Below are positions 42,114-42,251 of a stretch of DNA of 64,000 bases, in pieces; position 1 is the stretch's first letter; each line of letters opens with the position of its first letter. Under the pieces are notes generated by a model that saw nothing but the letters and a program-made list of their open reading frames with translations, made no database searches and was not told the origin of the DNA. Source of the stretch: a virus; the IMG/VR virus record IMGVR_UViG_3300037193_001286, positions 1 to 64,000 of that record; one strand, given 5' to 3'. The position numbers and the translations under genes were made by a program.

Positions 42114-42251
42114 GGGTCTGGCGGGAATTGACGAAATCGGGCTTTTTGCTGTTGCTCTACCGCTGAGCTAACCCCCTTTCGGGGGTACTGGATTCGAACC
42201 AATGACCTACAGTTTATGAGAAGTATCCGATCTCTTCGCCACGCCAGACCC
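42114..42251 (-). ncRNA. YrlA-type Y RNA with circularly permuted tRNA-like module
   Basis: About 138 bases on the minus strand. Perfect outer stem GGGUCUGGCG/CGCCAGACCC, conserved UGGCGAAG, inner stem AUCGG/CCGAU, GAUACUUC. Inside lies a tRNA in permuted order: CTCATAA and ACTGT (3' half of an anticodon arm, 42209-42220), variable AGGTC, T-arm ATTGG-TTCGAAT-CCAGT (42187-42203), acceptor strands ACCCCC and GGGGGTT joined by GAAA, D-arm GCTCAGCGGTAGAGC, then ACAGC (42148-42152), the 5' anticodon stem. The Y stem thus replaces the opened anticodon loop. This is the YrlA layout, where the module mimics tRNA. Confidence 0.9.

Follow-up and report, generated by a model that had tools for sequence, protein, structure and literature searches.

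Unit B, a minus-strand RNA element encoded upstream of a Ro60 homologue gene on a virus record, is probably a phage Y RNA of the YrlA type, in which a complete tRNA mimic would serve as a decoy or adapter tethered to Ro; we put the probability of this reading at about 0.6. Comparison with relatives from phages and bacteria established its linkage to Ro, the permuted order of its tRNA parts, an anticodon stem split between two strands of the RNA, and a constraint on the anticodon loop.

Locus and anatomy of unit B

The window, meaning the whole stretch of DNA that was analysed, comprises bases 1-64000 of a virus record with a full length of 73,858 bases. The Ro60 homologue (TROVE and VWA domains, 447 amino acids) is encoded at 40527-41867 on the minus strand, with its ATG at 41867, and was identified from its matches to Pfam (PF05731 TROVE, E 8.8e-11) and to the TROVE proteins of PDB 9L5Y/9KOP (residues 16-430, E 1.8e-24). 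Upstream of this gene, the minus strand of 41920-42341 holds four units, A to D, which have the motif GGCGTGGCGAAG..CGGWTACTTC..TTCCCGCC in common. Unit A (42268-42341, minus strand; GACGTGGCGAAGG..GGTTACTTC..TTCCC) is simple and Y RNA-like, shares the motif with unit B, carries no tRNA mimic and folds no better than its shuffles (z -0.6). Unit D (41920-41988, minus strand) adjoins the Ro gene and is likewise simple and Y RNA-like, being recognised by the common motif (fold z -1.0). Unit C (41999-42103, minus strand; fold z -2.7) is Y-like and perhaps a partial tRNA mimic, with a T-arm-like hairpin (GCCTGTTCAAATCAGGC, 42027-42043, minus strand), a strong hairpin and no D arm. Unit B (42114-42251, minus strand) has a fold that is better than all 200 dinucleotide shuffles (z -4.3), and possesses the two marks of a bacterial Y RNA in the wide sense, namely a long, bulged end-to-end stem in its fold and a gene linked to Ro60.

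Read 5' to 3', unit B begins with the 5' strand of a putative Ro-binding stem (GGGTCTGGCGTGGCGAAGAGATCGG, 42227-42251; GTGGCGWAGA..CGGTTACTTC is common to relatives), which pairs, in the minimum-energy fold, with the 3' strand of this stem at the far end of the unit (CCCGATTTCGTCAATTCCCGCCAGACCC, 42114-42141). The permuted tRNA core lies between them at 42148-42220 on the minus strand. It is preceded by U31 (42221), the local portion of the 5' strand of the anticodon stem, which pairs with A39 in the split-stem analysis described below. Then follow an intact anticodon loop, CUCAUAA (tRNA positions 32-38, anticodon CAU; 42214-42220), the 3' strand of the anticodon stem, ACUGU (39-43; 42209-42213), and the variable loop AGGUC (44-48; 42204-42208). 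The fold places a T arm of five pairs with loop UUCGAAU at 42187-42203, a fused acceptor stem of six pairs capped by a GAAA tetraloop (ACCCCC-GAAA-GGGGGT) at 42171-42186, and the D arm GCUCAGCGGUAGAGC, preceded by U8 and A9, at 42154-42168. Near the end of the core is ACAG (27-30; 42149-42152), the distal portion of the anticodon stem 5' strand, which pairs with CUGU at 40-43. An earlier note on this DNA had listed the loop CTCATAA, ACTGT, AGGTC, T arm, acceptor hairpin, D arm and ACAG, and all of them are on the minus strand where it placed them. The fused acceptor ends and the CAU in the loop that it described are evident in the sequence, and when the re-permuted sequence was run in ARAGORN, as it had suggested, it was called tRNA-Met(CAT).

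The anticodon stem of unit B has five pairs, four with the ACAG strand and one (U31-A39) with the strand before the loop, and the chain therefore enters and leaves the mimic inside the 5' strand of this stem. The earlier proposal that the anticodon loop is opened into the Ro-binding stem was thus mistaken on this point, as the loop is intact and the Ro stem joins through the break in the 5' strand. A cloverleaf with the four pairs lies 1.1 kcal/mol above the free minimum (-56.7 versus -57.8), and a fold in which the lone U31-A39 pair is also forced reaches -52.2, which is 5.6 costlier than the minimum; by such modelling the split stem is not settled from the single sequence. In native order, ARAGORN found no tRNA anywhere in the 64,000-nt window. 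Two properties of a functional tRNA are missing from unit B: a free acceptor end with 3' CCA, the acceptor being closed by GAAA, and an ARAGORN call in normal order, the call being obtained solely after re-permutation. With its acceptor ends fused, unit B cannot decode in this form.

Relatives, split stem and loop constraint

Relatives came from three sources, namely loci found with the Ro protein in viral contigs (36) and in bacterial genomes (35), and a scan of viral contigs with a DNA pattern in which the anticodon arm was left free. Genuine tandem tRNAs were removed by rule, leaving at least 130 permuted elements; the rule errs both ways, having discarded a few true Y RNAs and retained one real, short-spaced tRNA pair (L008 4617). 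At least 111 elements are spaced widely enough for a full loop, and a mild redundancy filter reduced them to a set of 108 that does not contain L008 4617. Clustering at identities below 80 % collapsed the set of relatives, and the 80 % level was used.

TROVE is encoded in 47 of 50 contigs among the matches listed for the RNA-pattern scan, versus 1 of 14 control genomes. A loop-bearing permuted RNA occurs no more than 1.2 kb from Ro in 21 of the 33 viral loci that were found by protein alone and include upstream DNA, and at 15 of 35 bacterial Ro loci, from Bradyrhizobium, Hyphomonadaceae, Acidobacteria and others. At least nine Ro loci have permuted RNAs that are too short for the anticodon loop, so that the loop is not required everywhere. 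RtcB, the one neighbouring gene examined as a candidate partner, is encoded in one of 34 Ro phage records (G005:C1:3147-4289, the record of L006), and a link to RNA repair operons is therefore not general in phages. A DNA similarity search of phages and plasmids returned mostly ordinary tRNA pairs, with genuine candidates in Arthrobacter phage Atuin and two Vibrio phages; the Atuin element (L197 2503) is an unannotated permuted Y RNA, 3' of a Ro-like gene and within a large tRNA array. Five Bradyrhizobium loci (L162, L166, L170, L175, L181) have permuted Y RNAs with NCCA in the acceptor loop, e.g. CCGGTGT-TCCA-TGCACCGG, an apparent trace of tRNA descent, and a second, loopless copy is present at some of them. 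At L123 2123, a tRNA-Gly gene apparently lies within the anticodon region of another tRNA-like gene (TCCGGGT..ACCCGGA GCCA).

Three tRNA annotations upstream of Ro in GenBank are parts of permuted Y RNAs: the 'tRNA-Gln' of CcrColossus (JX100810 109217-109284; L193), the 'tRNA-Thr' of Xanthomonas phage 10KY502B (OQ622092 20624-20691; L194) and the 'tRNA-Ser' of Brevundimonas phage Kikimora (ON529857 158412-158486; L195). Each spans a 5' half, made up of the 5' strand of the Ro stem, the anticodon arm and the T arm, and the annotation is corrected accordingly, some phage 'tRNA' genes being Y RNAs. There is a negligible probability that the permuted arrangement is due to chance or to a tandem pair of broken tRNA genes; tandem tRNAs resembling the pattern do occur at some loci (L008, L153), but the acceptor strands of the permuted elements pair with each other, the Ro-stem motif and the Ro gene are present, and covariation is strong.

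In the split model of pairs 27-43 to 31-39, the RNA that follows the D arm contributes k bases at the start of the 5' strand, and the segment preceding the loop contributes the others. Because MAFFT alignment misplaces the anticodon arm when the spacing differs, composites of fixed length were used to count the pairs. All five pairs are present in 97 of the 108 relatives, against a mean of 9.7 % and a maximum of 19 % over 2000 shuffles of the 3' strands, and at 80 % clustering the complete split stem is found in 90 % of 83 relatives versus 8 % when shuffled. Pairs 27-43 and 28-42 are formed from the distal strand in 97-98 % of the 108, with C-G, A-U, G-C and U-A as pair types, and pairs 30-40 and 31-39 from the local strand in 79-83 %. 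For the 54 relatives of equal spacing, the share of cells paired is 98.7 % with the split stem, 96.5 % with an all-local stem and 83.5 % with an all-distal one, and the covariation values are 0.64, 0.52 and 0.51, respectively. In every one of these 54, pairs 27-43 and 28-42 are distal (via 3 and 4 pair types), and split-model pairing falls below 50 % when the partner is slid. The all-local and all-distal stems were rejected for their poorer fit to the same 54 relatives. The structure also withstood the check on covariation among homologues, whose absence the earlier note had held to be fatal to it.

After re-permutation, 104 of the 108 sequences were called as tRNAs by ARAGORN, 98 of them with the anticodon expected from the loop, compared with 5 calls in native order, 0 for shuffled sequences and 17-20 for mismatched halves; the test flanks supplied ACCA and were identical for the re-permuted sequences and their controls, native-order sequences being run with their own flanks. 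The seven-base anticodon loop is kept throughout the 108 relatives, with U33 in 90, a purine at position 37 in 106 and A38 in 93. At position 36, 62 relatives have U and 29 have G, giving 91 of 108 with U36 or G36 versus 392 of 665 ordinary tRNAs located at the same loci (p 1.7e-7, and p 1e-6 at 80 % clustering), where the comparison tRNAs are ARAGORN calls that include a few Y RNAs, and both C36 and A36 are depleted in the loops relative to these 665. Positions 36-38 read UAA in 59 relatives and GGA in 21, which are textbook determinants for t6A37 and m1G37, and the window loop, CUCAUAA, fits the t6A37 determinant U36A37A38, that of m1G37 being G36G37. By analogy with tRNAs, the Y RNA loop is presumably modified at position 37.

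The anticodon itself varies. CAU occurs in 4 of the 90 loops that bear U33, the others having GUU, UGU, GCU, UGG, UAG and more; the nearest relative of unit B (L002) has CAU in the loop UUCAUAA and the next nearest (L139) does not. CAU is not conserved, and U33, purine-37, A38 and U36/G36 are. The elongator Met-like identity that had been proposed for unit B does not extend to the family.

It is rather unlikely that only the tRNA core (D arm, T arm and acceptor) matters, as described for Salmonella YrlA, and that the anticodon arm merely survives from a captured tRNA gene because its hairpin is stable. Such a history agrees with the existence of loopless relatives, the loss of the loop in permuted forms amounting to about six to seven changes of separate origin on the Ro tree (below), and NCCA in 11 of the 108 elements is what tRNA descent predicts. 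Neutral capture, however, predicts a mixture like that of tRNAs, and base 36 deviates from the tRNA population (p 1.7e-7 as above); exactly five pairs in 97 of the 108, U33 in 90, and the joint maintenance of one stem by two different strands also argue against it.

Opposite permutation and acceptor ends

The same fold occurs in the opposite permutation in crAss001, related crAss-like phages, the chromosomes of Chryseobacterium and Elizabethkingia, and other phages. This form has the normal tRNA order, beginning with the acceptor 5' strand, D arm, base 26, the distal anticodon bases and a Ro-type stem closed by a short loop, after which come the local bases, the anticodon loop, the T arm and the acceptor 3' strand. 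Normal-order forms are located at, among others, L196 3103 and 3358 (crAss001), L200 4538, L201 5121, L184-L190 and L024 4605. There are 22 normal-order examples with a complete 7-pair acceptor, the five-pair split stem is present in 18 of the 22, and two normal-order examples have an encoded ACCA (L024 and L206). TROVE is found in 12 of 18 tested contigs that carry normal-order forms. The second normal-order RNA of crAss001 is Leu-like (GGGGATGTGGTGAAAT..CATCCCC), and the crAss-like phage cr106_1 has an annotated tmRNA gene together with tRNAs (L200 365-668) a few kilobases from its Ro gene.

In a tree of 114 Ro proteins, built by a quick method and containing some long branches, 13 proteins are encoded near normal-order forms, and 11 of these are in one well-supported clade of Bacteroidota hosts and phages. 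By parsimony on this tree, the normal-order forms may have arisen at three places, a single origin also being possible. Both permuted and normal-order forms are found, and therefore one fold, opened at either end, is in use; the occurrence of both circular permutations among related Ro systems provides a rare natural pair for studying the origins of RNA permutation.

The acceptor bears on whether these loci could be permuted tRNA genes like those of algae and archaea, in which opening of the acceptor loop and closure at the Ro stem would turn the product into a working tRNA; we regard this as very unlikely. Acceptors of 7 contiguous pairs in 59 of the 108 permuted elements, NCCA after the acceptor strand in 11 (partly among related Bradyrhizobium copies), and the open acceptor ends of the opposite permutation, two with encoded ACCA, are compatible with such a product. 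Many of the permuted acceptors, the window's included, are nevertheless capped by tight tetraloops (GAAA, GCAA, UUCG), the strand break is located in the anticodon stem and its position there varies among permuted elements, and removal of the Ro stem would require hypothetical cuts and a ligation, with RtcB mostly absent from these records.

Proposed role and relation to known systems

In the proposed Ro-tethered decoy or adapter, the long end-to-end stem is likely the Ro60-binding handle of unit B, and the other half would present the T arm, fused acceptor, D arm, five-pair anticodon stem and intact loop. With the Ro stem entering and leaving where the 5' strand of the anticodon stem is interrupted, the mimic is expected to stack like the L of a tRNA, the Ro particle hanging from the anticodon-arm side. 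From these features we infer binding of Ro by the long stem, a tRNA-like three-dimensional shape and a partner protein. This partner would recognise the entire tRNA, anticodon arm and all, and unit B would either keep the Ro particle attached to it or itself occupy it. Unit B would thereby be a decoy that counters a host anticodon nuclease, or an adapter that joins Ro with a tRNA-acting enzyme. The best fit is a decoy or adapter whose partner protein reads the anticodon, since this would explain why positions 33 and 36-38 are kept. Hughes et al. (PMC7790460) proposed YrlA as a decoy against an anticodon nuclease, the Salmonella YrlA being uncut by the anticodon nuclease studied (PMC7790460), and PMC10264068 and PMC11555353 discuss phage tRNAs as a counter to tRNA-cutting defences.

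A tether for the exoribonuclease PNPase, as with the Deinococcus Y RNA and with the tRNA shape as a docking surface for that enzyme only, is an unlikely function; it is established for Deinococcus Rsr and its Y RNA (PMC7790460, PMC8394870), but would leave the conserved anticodon loop and the base-36 bias unexplained. That the anticodon arm is maintained in a complete mimic makes it probable that many Ro particles have an effector which reads this arm, so that the purpose of bacterial and phage Y RNAs becomes directly testable through what binds the anticodon loop. The sharing of the complete mimic by about a hundred relatives, and the occurrence of the fold opened at the opposite end in others, indicate that full tRNA mimicry has a selected role in Ro-RNA complexes. 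Much more tentatively, phage and bacterial Ro60 particles might be equipped with their own class of tRNA-Y RNA chimeras, existing in both permutations, in which an entire tRNA with its anticodon loop is attached to the Ro-binding stem at a break in the anticodon stem; their position-37 determinants would make a host anticodon-reading enzyme, for example an anticodon nuclease, accept the loop, the particle being a decoy in phage-host conflict.

The Rfam model of YrlA (RF02553) aligns with unit B end to end (model 1-114, 41.3 bits, 42131-42233; E 9.5e-8 on a 591-base stretch and 2.8e-9 on the whole record), and unit B therefore has its T arm, fused acceptor and D arm in the order of YrlA. This full-length alignment and the adjoining TROVE gene bear out the earlier identification as a Ro-associated Y RNA of the YrlA type. 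The score is below the Rfam gathering cut-off for YrlA (69 bits), which was reached neither by unit B nor by any of the 35 related phage records, and at gathering score no Rfam family, other Y families included, matched the unit B locus; weak matches to sR44, ES003 and SMAD5-AS1 were taken as chance. The 7-pair helix that continues the anticodon stem in YrlA is absent, all seven pairs being non-standard in the unit B alignment.

YrlA of Salmonella and relatives (RF02553, PDB 6CU1) resembles unit B in its linkage to Ro60 and in having the T arm, fused acceptor and D arm in permuted order, whereas the Rfam YrlA has the 7-pair helix and no anticodon loop in place of the 7-base loop and split five-pair stem of unit B. 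YrlA is further characterised by binding to Ro60 and by the modification of its D and T loops by tRNA enzymes. Comparison of structures (PDB 6CU1) has shown that YrlA is circularly permuted with respect to tRNA (PMC11472068), and PMC8394870 describes tRNA mimicry by YrlA for the D, T and acceptor arms only. Circular permutation as such is thus already known YrlA architecture. Y RNAs with a tRNA-like domain near Ro were reportedly noted by Chen et al. in 2014 in more than 250 bacterial and phage species. The Deinococcus Y RNA of the Rsr-PNPase tether also adjoins a bacterial Ro60 and shares the tether logic; it is not known to be a complete tRNA mimic. Permuted tRNA genes of red algae and archaea likewise have the 3' half of the tRNA before the 5' half, but they are interrupted in the anticodon loop region and their transcripts mature into tRNAs, whereas unit B is interrupted in the anticodon stem and its two ends pair as a Ro-type stem. 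With tRNA-Met(CAU) and tRNA-Ile2(CAU), unit B shares the loop CUCAUAA and the D and T loop consensus, but it has no free acceptor end and its CAU is unconserved in relatives. On the sequences compared here, unit B and its relatives are YrlA-like in their working, depart from one defining feature of the Rfam family, and form part of a larger group in which the reverse permutation also occurs.
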